A stretch of DNA of 50,667 bases from a bacterium BMS3Abin08 (GTDB lineage Bacteria > Nitrospirota > Thermodesulfovibrionia > Thermodesulfovibrionales > JdFR-85), in the NCBI GenBank assembly GCA_002897935.1, contig BDTA01000079.1:1-50667 (forward strand). The letters are read 5' to 3'. Positions 4,065 to 10,226 of the stretch are shown here, one piece after another. Made by a program: the position numbers and the translations under genes. Each line of letters starts with the position of its first letter. Position 1 is the first letter of the stretch. The notes beneath the pieces were generated by a model. The model was not told where the DNA came from. It did not search any database and was given only the letters and a program-made list of their open reading frames with translations.

Positions 4065-4143
4065 CTGGATTTTATATTCAGTACATTGATTAGCCGTTCG
4101 TGAAGGTCTGTGGCCTTAATCTATCAACATGAAAGGGGAAACT

Positions 4144-4425
4144 ATGAATAAGATCGTATCTTATACACGTGCCGGGAAGCCATGGGCTCCCCGGTTTATT
4201 GAATCAATCGACATAGAGAAGTGTCTTGGCTGTGGACGTTGCTATAAGGTCTGTGGAAGAGAGGTTCTTGAACTCATTGAGAAGCCCTTCGAGGAGGAAG
4301 AGGATGAGTTTGGTGATGATATGGGCAACAAGGTTATGAGTATCGTCAACCGGGAGAACTGTATCGGTTGCGAGGCCTGTGCAAAGGCCTGCACAAGGAA
4401 ATGCCATGTTCACATAGAATTATAG
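4144..4425 (+). CDS. Nif-specific ferredoxin III, 2[4Fe-4S]
   Basis: 93-residue ferredoxin of the nif-specific type III family: N-terminal PRFIESIDIEKC, first cluster motif CLGCGRCYKVCGREV, an acidic spacer (EEEEDEFGDD), second motif CIGCEACAKACTRKC. The spaced acidic linker between two Cys-rich halves is typical of this family, which donates electrons for nitrogenase or cofactor assembly. Start at ATG 4144 is preferred over an in-frame ATG at 4129 because AAAGGGG lies 6 bases upstream. Placed between nifI2 and hesA as in many nif operons. Confidence 0.9.
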   Translation: MNKIVSYTRAGKPWAPRFIESIDIEKCLGCGRCYKVCGREVLELIEKPFEEEEDEFGDDMGNKVMSIVNRENCIGCEACAKACTRKCHVHIEL

Positions 4426-4739
4426 TTGAGCTGTCAATGGGTTTTAGGGGTTGTTGCAAAGCACACTTTTGTAAGCCGTAAAACACTATTGTCTGTATAC
4501 TTGAACCTCTTCTCCGATCTTTTTTACAAAAAAACAAAGAGTTAACTCTTTGGCATATCAATTGCTATTTAGAGTCTGTGTATAAAGTCGAACAGTTGTC
4601 GTTATTCCGTCATTCCGGCTTGTCGGGAATCTAAGAGGAGTATGATTCCCGACGTAGCGGGAATGACAATTCAAACACGCCGGCATTACAAGATTGACAC
4701 GACAGTAGTTTTCCTGTCAGCTTGAAAGGAGGAATGCTT
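4426..4739. other. Intergenic stretch fdx-hesA, no gene seen
   Basis: 314 bases holding a degenerate copy of the dispersed element (4570-4686) and a short inverted repeat GACAG/CTGTC just before the hesA ribosome-binding site. I see no coding region and no clear sigma-54 or NifA site. Confidence 0.6.
4570..4686. repeat. Dispersed palindromic element copy 2 (right end degraded)
   Basis: Left terminus TAGAGTCTGTGTATAAA is intact; the interior has TCATTCCGGCTTGTCGGGAA and ATTCCCGACGTAGCGGGAAT; the right terminus no longer matches (ends near AACACGCCGGC). Confidence 0.75.
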
Positions 4740-5486
4740 ATGACCGCACTGACAGAGAGAGATAAGGAAAGATACAGGCGTCAGTTAATGCTGGATGGCT
4801 TCAGCCTTGAACATCAGGAGCGCCTTAAAGGGGCAACCGCCCTGGTAGCGGGTATAGGCGGGCTTGGCGGCACAGCCGCCCTGTATCTTGCGACAGCCGG
4901 CATTGGAAGACTTGTATTGGTCCATTCAGGAAACCTGACACCCTCCAACATGAACAGACAAATACTGATGGAAAACGCCTGGATTGGGAAAAGCCGTGTC
5001 GTACAGGCAAAAAAAACAATTGAAGGGATAAATCCCGATATCGATATAGAGATACATGATGAACGGATCAGTGATGATAACATCTCACGTCTTCTCGGCG
5101 GTGTGGACATCGCCCTTTCCACAAGACCAAACTTTTCAGAACGGAGGATTCTCAACAGCGAATGTGTCAAAAAAAATATCCCCATGACAGAGGCGGCAAT
5201 GAACGGAATGGAGGGGTACCTCTTTAACGTGGTCCCCCAAAGGACACCATGTCTTAACTGCCTGTTTCCGAATGATGATCCCGGGTGGGAGGAACTCGGG
5301 TTCCCTGTTCTTGGAGCGGTTTCAGGAACCCTCGGGTGCCTTATGGCAATAGAGGGCATCAAGTTATTGACCGGATACGGGAAACCCTTAATCTCTCAAA
5401 TGCTTCTGTTTAATACATTCGGTATGGATTTCAGAAAGGTGAATATCAGGAAAGATGACCACTGCACTATTTGTATTGAAAGGTAA
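4740..5486 (+). CDS. hesA: HesA/MoeB/ThiF-family adenylyltransferase in nif operon
   Basis: 248-residue E1-like enzyme: R(Y)RRQLMLDGF near the N-terminus, nucleotide-binding loop GIGGLGGTAALYLATAGIG (residues about 38-56), SNMNRQ arginine motif, and paired CxxC zinc ligands PCLNC and HCTIC near the C-terminus. Family members adenylate the C-terminal Gly-Gly of ubiquitin-like sulfur carriers; HesA copies in nif clusters are linked to molybdenum or Fe-S supply to nitrogenase. No carrier protein is seen next to it. ATG 4740 follows AAAGGAGG by 7 bases. The 3' end carries the ribosome-binding site of the next gene, so the two are translationally coupled. Confidence 0.85.
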   Translation: MTALTERDKERYRRQLMLDGFSLEHQERLKGATALVAGIGGLGGTAALYLATAGIGRLVLVHSGNLTPSNMNRQILMENAWIGKSRVVQAKKTIEGINPDIDIEIHDERISDDNISRLLGGVDIALSTRPNFSERRILNSECVKKNIPMTEAAMNGMEGYLFNVVPQRTPCLNCLFPNDDPGWEELGFPVLGAVSGTLGCLMAIEGIKLLTGYGKPLISQMLLFNTFGMDFRKVNIRKDDHCTICIER

Positions 5487-5493
5487 GTCACCT

Positions 5494-6804
5494 ATGACAA
5501 AGAAAACACGAAAATACGGATCGTCAATCAAACTCAATCTGCCGGACAGAAAGTGGCCCGATAACAGAATCAGTTCCGCCCCGGTATGGTGCAGCGTTGA
5601 CCTCAGAGACGGCAACCAGGCGCTACCTGCTCCCATGGGGGTTGATGAAAAAACCGGATTATTCAGGCTCCTCTGCGAGATAGGCTTTAAGGAAATAGAA
5701 GTGGGTTATCCCTCGTCGTCAGCGACGGAGTATAACTTTGTGCGCAACCTCATTGAGGAGGATCTTATCCCCGATGATATGACTATTCAGGTTATCACAC
5801 AGACAAGGCCCGACCTGATCAGAAGGACATTTAATGCCCTGGAAGGGGCAAAAAGGGCTATTATCAATTTTTACACACCGACATCACCTGCACAGAGAGA
5901 GTTCGTCCTCTCCAAGAACAGAAAAGAGATCATAGAAATGGCGGTCAAAGGGGCTGAATTAATAAGACTGGAGACGGAAAGACTGCAGGATACCGGTATC
6001 AGGCACCTTTTCTGTCCTGAGAGCTTTTCTTCAACCGAACCTGACTTTGCCCTTGAAATCTGTGAATCCGTCCTTGATGTACTGGAGCCGACTGTCGATA
6101 CAAAAGTAATCCTGAATCTGCCTGCCACAGTAGAGGTATCAATGCCGAATGTCTATGCCGACCTGATCGAGTGGTTCAGCAGAAACATAAAGCACCGGGA
6201 CAGGGTCATAATAGGCGTTCATACACATAATGACCGGGGCACTGCAGTGGCGGCAACTGAACTGGCACTCCTTGCAGGTGCCGACCGCGTTGAGGGCACG
6301 CTCTTCGGGATGGGAGAAAGGGCCGGCAATGCCGATCTCGTCACCCTTTCGCTGAACCTCTTTTCTCAGGGAGTGGATCCCTGCCTCGATCTGAGCAACC
6401 TCAACAGGATAAAGGGGGTCTTTGAACGCTGCAGCGGAGCCAGTGTTTATGAACGGCACCCCTATGCAGGAGAACTCGTATTTGCTAACTTTGCGGGGGC
6501 CCACCAGGATGCGATAAGAAAGGCCCTCAAGACGCCGTCCGGAGGCAAAAGTGATTCCTGGGATGTACCCTATATGTTGATAGATCCTTCAGATATAGGC
6601 CGCTCCGATGAACACCTGATACGGATCAACAGTCAGTCCGGCAAGGGCGGTATAGCATTTATTCTCGACAGGTATTGCAATATTACACTCCGGGACGATG
6701 ACTATGCTGAAATACGTGATATTATCAAAAAAATCTCCGAGGTCTCAAGGAAGGAGATCCCTCCTGAGACTATACAGGAGTTAGCTCTGGCCTTTTCTTC
6801 ATGA
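5494..6804 (+). CDS. Class II isopropylmalate synthase-like enzyme, probable homocitrate synthase
   Basis: 436 residues. The catalytic TIM barrel matches yeast-type LeuA: PVWCSVDLRDGNQAL (metal and substrate residues), IEVGYPSSSATEYNFV, ILNLPATVEVSMPNVYAD, HTHNDRGT (metal His pair), GERAGNADLVT, RHPYAGELVF, HQDAI, NSQSGKGG. Usual class II LeuA has about 550 residues; the C-terminal leucine-binding regulatory domain is absent, the protein stopping soon after the linker. Class II IPMS normally reads HPHNDRGT and GERTGNVD, so two active-site-near positions differ. Location at the end of the nif operon and the nitrogenase need for homocitrate suggest a NifV role (inference). An alternative is a leucine-insensitive IPMS. 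Start ATG 5494 uses AAAGG inside the hesA 3' end. Confidence 0.78.
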   Translation: MTKKTRKYGSSIKLNLPDRKWPDNRISSAPVWCSVDLRDGNQALPAPMGVDEKTGLFRLLCEIGFKEIEVGYPSSSATEYNFVRNLIEEDLIPDDMTIQVITQTRPDLIRRTFNALEGAKRAIINFYTPTSPAQREFVLSKNRKEIIEMAVKGAELIRLETERLQDTGIRHLFCPESFSSTEPDFALEICESVLDVLEPTVDTKVILNLPATVEVSMPNVYADLIEWFSRNIKHRDRVIIGVHTHNDRGTAVAATELALLAGADRVEGTLFGMGERAGNADLVTLSLNLFSQGVDPCLDLSNLNRIKGVFERCSGASVYERHPYAGELVFANFAGAHQDAIRKALKTPSGGKSDSWDVPYMLIDPSDIGRSDEHLIRINSQSGKGGIAFILDRYCNITLRDDDYAEIRDIIKKISEVSRKEIPPETIQELALAFSS

Positions 6805-6866: not shown

Positions 6867-8780
6867 TCAAAACAGCCCTCCCTGTTTATCTTTTTCTTTC
6901 CGCCGCTTTACCCTGTCGGGGATTATCCGCTCTTTTGTAAACCCTTGGGGGATCTCCCTGAGAAACGGCGAAGGCCCCTGGATAAGCCTCTGCCCGTATA
7001 AAAACCTCTCCCTGGCGTGGAGGATAAACAACTCGTCCTTTGCCCTTGTCATCGCCACATAAAAGAGTCTCCTCTCTTCTTCCATATCAACCTCTTTAAA
7101 CGTGTAGGGAACGAGGCCCCCTTCAACACCCGCAATGAATACGACCCTGAACTCGAGCCCCTTTGCCATATGCATGGTCATCAATGTCACTGCTTCGGCC
7201 CTTGGGTCAAAACCGTCTGCCGGAGTCATGATGCTGAGTTCGTCCATGAACCGCCTTATCCCTGAAGGTGGCTTTAACTCCCCGTATTCCGCAGCGAGGT
7301 CATTGAGAAAGCATAAAAAGCCCCCCGCCTTTTCACCGCGATCCTTCTTCAGACCCCCGGCATCAGGTATCTCCCTGAGGAGTTCATCGATAGGCAGGGT
7401 ATCCTTAAGCCCATGAAGCCTGTCTATCATTGAAACAAACTCACTCCCCTCCACCGGACCTTCCCTCATGGCCTCGTAAAGGCTAACCCCTTTATCCCTT
7501 GCATAGGCCCCTGCCTCCCTTAATACCCCCCTGTTCACACCGGATGGAGGCATAGCAGCAACCCGGTACAGGGCAAGGTCATCCCATGGACACATTATTA
7601 CCCTGAGCCATGAAAGCATACAGTTCAACCCCCTGCTTCCAACTGGATCTGTCCCGCCCACCACCTGGCAGGGAATTCCTGAATCCATAAAGACCCCTTC
7701 GATGGCCCCTGCCTGTGCATTTGTCCTGAAGATCACGGCAAAATCGGAAAAGCCGTAAGCATCGCCGGAAGGGGCCTCCCGGACCCCGGAACGGATCAAC
7801 TTATAGTGACTCGTGCCACCTATTCTCCGTTCTATCTCCCCCACTATAATCTCCCCTTCCGACTTTTCATCAGGGACGGAGATAACGGTAATAGGCACAC
7901 CATCCTCCCTGACGGAAACGACCTCTTTCTCCAGCCTCCGGATGTTATTCCTGATCATACTGCCGGAGGCATTCAGCACCGTTGCAGTTGAGCGGTAATT
8001 TTCGGTGAGGGTGATTCTCCTGACGCCCCTGAAATCATCCTCAAAGCGCAGGAAGTTAACAACATCCGCCCCCCTGAAGCCGTAAATTGCCTGATCGGGG
8101 TCACCTACGGCACATATATTCCCGTCACTGCCGGACAGGAGTCTGAAGAATTGACGCTGTGCCGGGTTTATGTCCTGATATTCATCCACAAGAATATACT
8201 TGAACTCCTCCCTGAACCGCTCAAGGGTATCACCGTCCCGAAGCAGGTCAAGGGGTTTGAGGATAAGGTCTTCAAAATCGAGGGCGGAGTTTTCACTGAG
8301 AGCGGTGTTGTATCTCTCATAAATCATTCTCAACTCATCCCCGGGGGTCTCAATGAGATTCTTGATCCTCGAGATACTCTCCGCTACCCTGTCCACGGGG
8401 GTTCTGCCCCTCCCGGATCCACCCTTCAGTATTCTCCGGAGAAGTTCCCTCTGGTCTTCCCTGTTGTATACGACAAATGGAAACGTAAGGGCTTCACTGA
8501 GAATTCTCAAGCCCAGGGAATGAACCGTGCCGATAAAGGGTCTCCTCTCACGCCTGCCCGGCGGAGCCTCCAGCCTCTCTCTCATCTCCCTTGCAGCACG
8601 GTTTGTGAATGTTACGGCCAGTATGTTTTCAGGCCTTATACCCTCATCAATCAGGTGCTCGATCCTGCGGACAATGGTCATTGTCTTTCCCGTCCCGGGC
8701 CCGGCAACAACAAGCAGAGGGCCCTCTGCGGTTAAGACCGCCTTGCGCTGTGCTTCGTTAAGGTTCCTGAATGTATCCAT
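6867..8780 (-). CDS. UvrD/PcrA-like superfamily 1 DNA helicase
   Basis: 637 residues. All SF1A motifs are present: I GPGTGKT, Ia FTNRAAREM, II VDEYQDINPAQ, III GDPDQAIYGFRGA, IV ENYRST, V TMHMAKGLEF, VI FYVAMTRAKD. A 3'-5' helicase acting in repair is expected. It is shorter than UvrD (about 720) and lacks the usual C-terminal tail; it ends instead in KDKQGGLF, matching the QxxL(F) pentapeptide that binds the bacterial sliding clamp. Start ATG 8780; an in-frame TTG lies two codons upstream; no clear Shine-Dalgarno. It is downstream of the EndoQ gene with 93 bases between them, on the same strand, so probably one operon for removal of deaminated bases. Confidence 0.88.
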   Translation of the reverse strand: MDTFRNLNEAQRKAVLTAEGPLLVVAGPGTGKTMTIVRRIEHLIDEGIRPENILAVTFTNRAAREMRERLEAPPGRRERRPFIGTVHSLGLRILSEALTFPFVVYNREDQRELLRRILKGGSGRGRTPVDRVAESISRIKNLIETPGDELRMIYERYNTALSENSALDFEDLILKPLDLLRDGDTLERFREEFKYILVDEYQDINPAQRQFFRLLSGSDGNICAVGDPDQAIYGFRGADVVNFLRFEDDFRGVRRITLTENYRSTATVLNASGSMIRNNIRRLEKEVVSVREDGVPITVISVPDEKSEGEIIVGEIERRIGGTSHYKLIRSGVREAPSGDAYGFSDFAVIFRTNAQAGAIEGVFMDSGIPCQVVGGTDPVGSRGLNCMLSWLRVIMCPWDDLALYRVAAMPPSGVNRGVLREAGAYARDKGVSLYEAMREGPVEGSEFVSMIDRLHGLKDTLPIDELLREIPDAGGLKKDRGEKAGGFLCFLNDLAAEYGELKPPSGIRRFMDELSIMTPADGFDPRAEAVTLMTMHMAKGLEFRVVFIAGVEGGLVPYTFKEVDMEEERRLFYVAMTRAKDELFILHARERFLYGQRLIQGPSPFLREIPQGFTKERIIPDRVKRRKEKDKQGGLF

Positions 8781-8873
8781 CTGCAAATAAAATCAACTAC
8801 CCGAATCAGGGGATAAGGAACAGACATATCCGGCAAGGGGGGGGGAACTCAATTAAACCGGTTGGCGGGTGCT

Positions 8874-10148
8874 TCAGAACAGCGCTGTCTGGCCCTTGAT
8901 CTCCTTCCTCTCCGCCTTCTCAAAGATCTTTATCCTGCCGAACTCACCGTCATAGCCCGGTACAATACTGATATCACCTGAACGCATCCTTGCAATGGCC
9001 TCCCTCAGGAGAGGAGATCCCCCGCGTTCGATATCATCAAGGGAGACATCCATAAGTATGTTGAATTCACTGCCGAACCTCTTTAAGAGGGCCATATATG
9101 CAGCTCTCACCCTTTTGCTGTTTGCCCCGACCTCCAATGTCTCGGCAAGCACCTCATGGAGGGGGATAATGGAATGGAAGCCCCGGGCGTCGGACGGCCT
9201 GAAGCCCTCTTCCCTGTCTGCAAGCAGTTCAACCCGGTGCATTACACCCACTGTAACCCCCTTCCCGCATACGGGACAGAGGTAATCATGCCTTATCGTC
9301 TCCTTTGGGGAGCAGATAACCCCACAAGCCCTGTGTCCGTCATAATGATACTTCCCCTCCTCAGGAAAAAACTCTATGGTTCCCGAAAACCCCCGCCCTG
9401 TCTTGAAAGCCTCCATTATGGATGCATAAGAGACTTCCGTATCAAGGATATTGGCCTCCCGTCCGATCTTGACCGGTGAGTGGGCATCGGAGTTGGAAAT
9501 CAGTGTTTTGCCGTCAAGGCCGGAGATCCTCCAGTTCATTGGGGGATCGGAGGAAAGCCCCGTCTCTACGGCATGGATATGTGGGGTCAGTTCCTCAAAG
9601 CACTCCTCAAGGGAGTCAAAGCCGGATACCGCTCCAAAGACTGAAAAATGGGGGGTCCAGGCATGGGCGGGCACAAGCACGACATCGGGGGATGCATCCA
9701 TAACCGTCTTAAGGAGTTCCTTTGCGTCGAGACCCAGTATGGGCCGCCCGTCGGCGGTCAGGTTTCCGATCCTGGACAAGGCGGCGTTTATCCTTGCTGC
9801 AACGCTGATGTCGGGGACAAAAACAATCGAGTGTATCTTCCTGGTCTTATCCCCCTTTTTGTAAATACAGCTTATCTCGGCGGAGAGAAGAAAAAACACC
9901 TCACCCATGCATGCCTGAGGTATCTCATCATCACTCTTAAAGGCACTCCGGAGGGTGTACAAACCGTTACCTTCGGGCTGAAGCTTCTCCCTGAGTTCAT
10001 CGAGCCACTCCGGGTGTGTAAAGTCACCTGTCCCTATAACGGTGATGCCCTTGTACTGAGCCCACTTCCATATCTTCTCGGGAGACATCTCCCTGCTGGT
10101 CGCCCGGGAATACCTCGAATGGATGTGCAGGTCTGCGGTGAAAGGCAT
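8874..10148 (-). CDS. endoQ: Endonuclease Q (PHP-domain deaminated-base endonuclease)
   Basis: 424 residues of the EndoQ family. PHP metal motifs: DLHIHSRYS (I), GTGDFTHP (II), VPAHAWTP (III), SNSDAHSP (IV). A zinc-ribbon-like Cys set follows (RACGVICS, then YLCPVCGKG) with the family block HRVELLADR. EndoQ nicks 5' of hypoxanthine, uracil, xanthine or abasic sites. The last five residues are QTALF, a sliding-clamp binding pentapeptide; archaeal EndoQ is known to work with PCNA. A TATAAT hexamer lies 5 bases upstream of the ATG with no ribosome-binding site, suggesting a leaderless mRNA. Operon partner is the UvrD-like helicase downstream. Confidence 0.9.
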   Translation of the reverse strand: MPFTADLHIHSRYSRATSREMSPEKIWKWAQYKGITVIGTGDFTHPEWLDELREKLQPEGNGLYTLRSAFKSDDEIPQACMGEVFFLLSAEISCIYKKGDKTRKIHSIVFVPDISVAARINAALSRIGNLTADGRPILGLDAKELLKTVMDASPDVVLVPAHAWTPHFSVFGAVSGFDSLEECFEELTPHIHAVETGLSSDPPMNWRISGLDGKTLISNSDAHSPVKIGREANILDTEVSYASIMEAFKTGRGFSGTIEFFPEEGKYHYDGHRACGVICSPKETIRHDYLCPVCGKGVTVGVMHRVELLADREEGFRPSDARGFHSIIPLHEVLAETLEVGANSKRVRAAYMALLKRFGSEFNILMDVSLDDIERGGSPLLREAIARMRSGDISIVPGYDGEFGRIKIFEKAERKEIKGQTALF

Positions 10149-10182: not shown

Positions 10183-10226
10183 GGGAGCAGGGACTCAATG
10201 CCCCGGGGCATTGAGTCCCTGCTCCC
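10183..10226. repeat. Perfect 44-bp palindrome between hcp and endoQ
   Basis: The 22-base arm starts GGGAGCAGGGACTCAATG and ends CCCC; the second arm is its exact reverse complement with no loop. A T-run lies 5' of it on the plus strand only, so it is not a canonical terminator for hcp, although a 22-bp stem could stop transcription or stabilise the hcp 3' end. Confidence 0.85.

Follow-up and report, generated by a model that had tools for sequence, protein, structure and literature searches.

Endonuclease Q and a UvrD-like helicase with clamp-binding-type tails are neighbours or fusion partners in diverse bacteria and may act in clamp-guided DNA repair

Endonuclease Q (EndoQ) nicks DNA 5' of dU, dI, xanthine or an AP site, as described for the archaeal enzymes and for that of Bacillus pumilus (PMC8307549, PMC6202378). 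A review limits the family to Euryarchaea and a few bacteria and proposes, for archaea, that the nick is followed by a helicase step, the helicase remaining unnamed (PMC8438529). The closest described system is the archaeal EndoQ-PCNA couple of the Thermococcales, in which, according to the main text of PMC4858679, PCNA stimulates EndoQ via a C-terminal PIP box and binds it with a KD of 55 nM, an interaction that is abolished by deletion of the box. The word 'helicase' is absent from that main text. It also describes that bacterial EndoQ homologues, among them that of B. subtilis, carry a beta-clamp consensus in their C-terminal region; as this dates from 2016, the EndoQ tail alone is not new. 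The locus described here resembles the archaeal system in that a C-terminal clamp tag follows a conserved core and in that the catalytic residues are conserved, and differs in that the clamp is the beta clamp instead of PCNA. The beta clamp is a dimer with two pockets that can hold two partners at once, and its published binding motif is QL[S/D]LF (PMC13254535).

In methylation-independent mismatch repair, a clamp-linked nick made by MutL is followed by UvrD, which unwinds towards the mismatch, and how the helicase is given its direction at the nick is a standing question in this clamp-dependent process (PMC8744996). The arrangement that we propose below would be alike in its order of nicking and unwinding towards the lesion. 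It is unlike mismatch repair in that EndoQ is lesion sensor and nickase in one unrelated enzyme, and in that nickase and helicase each carry a clamp motif and are often fused. RecB is likewise a UvrD-superfamily helicase-nuclease with a clamp-binding motif; its motif (QVEMEF), however, is internal in the nuclease domain, and the pathway is a different one (PMC13254535).

The window, i.e. the whole stretch of 50,667 nucleotides analysed here, corresponds to contig 79 in the draft genome (2.6 Mb) of a member of the phylum Nitrospirota. A first-pass annotation had reported an EndoQ that ends in QTALF next to a helicase that ends in QGGLF, and both ORFs and both tails were found again at the same coordinates (Table 1). 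The EndoQ C-terminus reads ERKEIKGQTALF up to the stop codon, the last residues being KGQTALF, and that of the helicase reads RRKEKDKQGGLF, the last residues being KQGGLF. The helicase start codon is a TTG, and an in-frame ATG lies two codons further in, at 8780. The genes share a strand and are spaced by 87 bp, a gap in which a search for a consensus terminator found none, and they plausibly form a single operon; their counterparts in many relatives directly adjoin or even overlap each other.

Table 1. Features of the EndoQ-helicase locus, in positions of the window.
Feature	Position	Strand	Remarks
EndoQ, endonuclease Q family	8874-10148	minus	424 aa; PDB sequence matches and aligned catalytic residues
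EndoQ C-terminal QTALF clamp-binding-type motif	8877-8891	minus	same position bears motif in most homologues
EndoQ-linked SF1A UvrD-like helicase	6867-8786	minus	639 aa from TTG; Pfam, motifs and model
Helicase C-terminal QGGLF clamp-binding-type motif	6870-6884	minus	near-invariant in linked helicases; predicted disordered
Gap between EndoQ stop and helicase TTG, 87 bp	8787-8873	minus	search found no consensus terminator
Perfect palindrome, 44 bp	10183-10226	none	35 bp upstream of EndoQ start; single genomic copy

Homology over the whole enzyme, together with its catalytic and base-pocket residues, identifies the upstream protein as an endonuclease Q. It matches the PDB sequence of PfuEndoQ (5zb8) over residues 4-417 (phmmer E=1.1e-46) as well as those of 7k30-7k33, and the QTALF tail sits just past this aligned core. 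E91, H106 and H162 align to E76, H84 and H139, the Zn-binding catalytic residues of the Pfu enzyme, and G197, S199, D221 and H223 to its G169, S171, D193 and H195, of which G169 and S171 belong to the base pocket (Zn and base-pocket residues as reported in PMC8307549). E91, H106, H162, G197 and S199 are invariant in 14 homologues. The closest named relative of the window copy (77%) comes from a Nitrospirae MAG (L172). Pfam has no model for EndoQ and gives no match to this part, which also stays under the TIGR00375 cut-off of NCBIfam, in the window as in two EndoQ-helicase fusions (L217, L191), so that such fusions may be annotated only as 'UvrD helicase'. These labels may explain why the pairing was missed.

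The downstream protein matches the Pfam families UvrD-helicase (4.5e-69) and UvrD_C (4.4e-44) and has a complete set of SF1A motifs (GPGTGKT, DEYQD, GDPDQAIYGFRG, NYRST, AKGLEF, LFYVAMTRA); judged by alignment, the active-site residues are intact in both enzymes. Its AlphaFold2 model (mean pLDDT 84.8, pTM 0.84) is nearest to UvrD/PcrA structures, with TM scores to DNA-bound UvrD, PcrA and Rep of mostly about 0.77-0.86, and by analogy with these relatives its polarity is expected to be 3'-to-5'. Nevertheless, a canonical PcrA/UvrD identity is ruled out by the score, which at 457 bits stays far below the NCBIfam PcrA/UvrD equivalog cut-off of 911, and by a separate position in the helicase tree (SH-aLRT 99, see below). 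Moreover, PcrA and UvrD end in a different conserved C-terminal domain that lacks QxxLF, whereas the linked clade ends in a disordered QxxLF tail; in the window helicase the last nine residues (631-639, including QGGLF) are predicted to be disordered (pLDDT < 50). Unlike UvrD, PcrA and Rep, many linked forms are also short. This applies to many Nitrospirota examples (e.g. L039, L073, L106) of about 520-560 aa without most of the 2B region, which the window helicase retains, and the reduction may bear on autoinhibition or strand opening.

The anti-phage system Gabija consists of a nuclease coupled to a UvrD helicase. It is improbable, in our estimate, that the pair works in a Gabija-like manner, with EndoQ nicking phage DNA rich in uracil or hypoxanthine and a helicase of the GajB type helping to destroy it. 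The helicase does match the PADLOC models for GajB and RTasHel, but every UvrD-like protein can be expected to do so, the resemblance to PcrA is closer, and for the EndoQ part PADLOC yields no match. An antiviral role has been suggested in a review for the Bacillus EndoQ (PMC8307549); a search of 50,697 phage records found no EndoQ. The sliding-clamp tag suggests, in contrast, a tether to host replication or repair, and the neighbours of the window pair are metabolic genes, a regulator and heat-shock proteins. A Gabija-type system in the strict sense was rejected, since no GajA-like OLD nuclease lies beside the helicase: its partner is EndoQ, upstream of which is a hydroxylamine reductase gene.

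How unusual the two tails are was assessed in the whole genome, using the DNA pattern CAR-N6-YTN-TTY-TRR and inspection of the matching regions. Among the 71 matches in 2.6 Mb, the only ORFs longer than 64 aa that end in QxxLF are EndoQ and its neighbour, the helicase; all others are at most 64 aa long. The twin tails on adjacent genes are more than chance. Both satisfy Q1, L/M4 and F/L5 of the clamp-binding consensus Q-phi-x-[L/M][F/L] and stand at the C-termini. The aliphatic residue (L/I/V/A) that the revised consensus has at position 2 is replaced by T in QTALF and by G in QGGLF, because of which clamp binding by the window tails is perhaps weak. Probably the tails dock their enzymes on the sliding clamp.

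The first-pass annotation had suggested a survey of bacterial EndoQ neighbourhoods and C-termini. In the present analysis the window EndoQ was used as query against 198 genomes of its own phylum (90 with a match), 249 genomes of the phylum of Moorella and 247 of that of Desulfonema, and an alignment of 14 EndoQ homologues was scanned against 84,980 species genomes. After removal of duplicates this yielded 179 distinct EndoQ loci with context. In 29 of these a UvrD-like helicase lies immediately downstream on the same strand, 54 encode natural EndoQ-UvrD fusions of about 1050-1240 aa, and 96 have no helicase in reach. The fusions come from at least 10 phyla, including Thermodesulfobacteriota, Myxococcota, Bacillota, Gemmatimonadota, Chloroflexota, Elusimicrobiota, Fibrobacterota, Planctomycetota, Bacteroidota, Balneolota and the window's own, and outside Nitrospirota no other arrangement is as common among the loci from the species-genome scan. 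The pairing of EndoQ with this helicase is conserved.

In trees from quick searches with SH-aLRT as the only support measure, fused, adjacent and unlinked helicases cluster in a single clade (SH-aLRT 99) that is distinct from PcrA/UvrD/Rep-like paralogues. In the EndoQ tree, whose root on the long branch of the Bacillus-type EndoQs is uncertain, split forms enclose the fusions, and adjacent pairs branch just outside the latter. The simplest reading of these trees is that the genes were first neighbours, that they fused later and that a few fusions were secondarily split. Since the fusions are nested in split forms and the helicases form a single clade, the window pair can be regarded as the split form of a protein that is fused elsewhere. 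In one locus (L074, G130:C14), a 112-aa ORF (5212-5550) just after EndoQ corresponds to the C-terminal end of a linked helicase only; it ends in QIGLF and resembles the remnant of a helicase gene that has decayed or lost its frame.

We then scored the relaxed motif Qxx[LIMF][FLIY] immediately behind the EndoQ core (DGxYG plus at most 40 residues). Of the adjacent EndoQs 28/29 carry it, of the fused ones 48/54 and of the solo ones 63/94, a difference between linked (76/83) and solo proteins that has a Fisher p of 8e-5 if shared ancestry is ignored, the counts being from related sequences. On the helicase side, 26 of 27 adjacent proteins carry the C-terminal motif, the exception being a frame-broken copy, and so do 49 of 50 complete fusions, 44 of which have both the motif at the EndoQ end and that at the C-terminus. 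Q635 and L638 are invariant, and F639 is nearly so, in an alignment of 20 linked helicases. Similarly, Q1045 is invariant across the aligned fusions, and conservation reaches at least 90% at L1048, F1049, Q418 and F422, as it does at catalytic residues, even though the linkers around these positions are poorly conserved. Unlinked members of the helicase clade end in QxxLF as well, but none of 28 sampled PcrA/UvrD/Rep-like paralogues has the tail; two proteins first labelled as paralogues, L355 (QKSLF) and L356 (QGRLF), belong inside the EndoQ-linked clade on the tree. The first-pass annotation had held that tails not conserved in orthologues would speak against its idea. In fact both tails are conserved, persist on fusion and are absent from paralogues. 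Contrary to our prediction that fusion to a helicase would cost EndoQ its internal tail, 48 of 54 fusions retain it, and we now read the tags as belonging one to each enzyme instead of one to each polypeptide.

These counts also bear on the question of whether the tails are clamp motifs at all. That they arose by chance or are a general C-terminal signal, for another partner or for stability, is in our view highly unlikely. Consistent with such an origin, the window tails deviate at position 2, and the relaxed pattern occurs within the last 8 residues of 14 of 769 other ORFs of at least 250 aa from EndoQ loci. The strict QxxLF, however, is found near the C-terminus of none of the same 769 ORFs, and shuffling the last 30 residues gives less than one strict match per set (<=0.12). 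The retention of the motif at an internal position in the fusions argues against a purely C-terminal signal, and the fusions themselves end in the canonical QL[S/D]LF: their terminal motif is mostly QL[S/D/E]LF, with the position preferences Q-L-[SKEDR]-L-F and L at position 2 in 35 of 49 tails, and its consensus QL[S/D/E/K]LF agrees with the published clamp motif (PMC13254535). The distant Bacillus-type EndoQs (L326-L335), at about 30% identity, terminate directly behind the core, with a tail in 0 of 10 and no helicase next door, in contrast to the beta-clamp consensus that the main text of PMC4858679 describes for B. subtilis.

On the clamp side, the genome has a single dnaN, in the order dnaA-dnaN-gyrB. 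The pocket residues L155, T172, G174-L177, P242, Y244, V247, S345 and V360-R365 of DnaN are identical to those of E. coli, and R246 and I317 differ. A model of a fusion (pLDDT 86.7, pTM 0.58) predicts each enzyme with confidence as a domain of its own; between the two runs a disordered linker (418-452), which starts at the internal motif, and disorder is predicted for the terminal motif as well. No fixed geometry between the enzymes is predicted, which suits tethering.

Taken together, the pairing, the fusions, the helicase clade, both motifs, intact active sites and a conserved DnaN pocket lead us to consider it reasonably likely that EndoQ and the linked helicase form a clamp-tethered excision repair pathway for deaminated bases, for which we infer that the tails bind DnaN, that the helicase is active with the expected polarity, and that the steps follow the order given below. 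EndoQ, tethered to the beta clamp by its QxxLF, would locate uracil, hypoxanthine, xanthine or an abasic site and nick 5' of the lesion, leaving a 3'-OH. The helicase would be tethered by its own tag, either to the same dimer, whose two pockets are identical, or to a neighbouring clamp. Because the nick is 5' of the lesion, a helicase of 3'-to-5' polarity can reach the damage only by moving along the intact strand. It would therefore enter on the unbroken strand at the nick, head towards the lesion 3' of the nick and displace the damaged strand as a 5' flap, which by analogy would be the geometry of UvrD in 5'-directed mismatch repair. The 3'-OH of the nick would be the proper place for clamp and polymerase: the clamp would then be freed there for polymerase, a 5' nuclease would trim the flap and ligase would seal the strand.

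Several observations speak against this pathway or limit it. The motif is missing from 31 of 94 solo EndoQs, and many EndoQs have no helicase nearby, which argues that the helicase is not obligatory; strand displacement by polymerase alone could repair the EndoQ nick. Since genes for a UDG-superfamily enzyme and for EndoV are present in the genome too, EndoQ and the helicase are not the sole route for these lesions, and a role of the pair as replacement for uracil-DNA glycosylase is ruled out. The first-pass annotation had taken the shared tags as the sign of a clamp-coordinated pair. This holds as far as the tails are conserved and pairing and fusions recur in at least 10 phyla. The tags are not, however, a strictly paired device, because the 63 tailed solo EndoQs keep theirs without a neighbouring helicase. 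The same solo loci, the tails on clade helicases unlinked from EndoQ, and some EndoQ-bearing genomes that have canonical-scoring helicases only would all fit two enzymes that bind the clamp independently, EndoQ surveying replicated DNA and the helicase serving as a clamp-recruited accessory motor that, for instance, removes roadblocks or RecA, with a linkage that reflects co-regulation or shared location instead of one pathway. We regard this as unlikely, since fusions that keep both motifs in at least 10 phyla are hard to explain without a joint substrate. Moreover, all but one of the own-phylum genomes with a high-scoring linked-type helicase also matched EndoQ. The exception (G194, of the same genus code as G040, 95% complete) has a linked-type helicase of 48% identity and no EndoQ match, which reflects either loss or a draft gap.

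What appears to be new, from the sequence comparisons, is a helicase clade with its own tag, its pairing and fusion with EndoQ, and the retention of both motifs. We found no description of EndoQ with a UvrD partner, of a PHP-UvrD fusion or of a dual motif in the openly accessible literature, which does not prove its absence. The clamp-tagged pair and the dual-tag fusions point to an undescribed clamp-guided DNA repair machine. The conserved, often fused helicase puts a name to the enzyme that would act after the EndoQ nick, and makes the clamp-tethered pathway testable in bacteria. As the clamp dimer has two pockets, the two motifs of an EndoQ-helicase unit could fill both. More tentatively, then, the unit could possibly be a widespread excision-repair nickase-helicase with one motif per enzyme, of which a single fused molecule or a pair occupies both pockets of one beta-clamp dimer. 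If so, filling both pockets would keep the clamp in place at the nick, fix the direction in which the strands are unwound and bar polymerase until the damaged strand has been lifted off; a protein with two motifs on a clamp with two pockets would be a concrete means of giving a helicase direction at a nick.

Two features flank the pair. The palindrome upstream of EndoQ (Table 1) has 22-bp arms without a loop and lies between the hydroxylamine reductase gene (hcp) and EndoQ; terminator of hcp or regulator are its candidate roles. On the other side, at 4129-6804 on the plus strand and convergent with the helicase, are genes for a nif-specific ferredoxin III, a MoeB/ThiF-like E1 enzyme and a LeuA-type 2-isopropylmalate synthase, which are possibly part of a nitrogen-fixation cluster.
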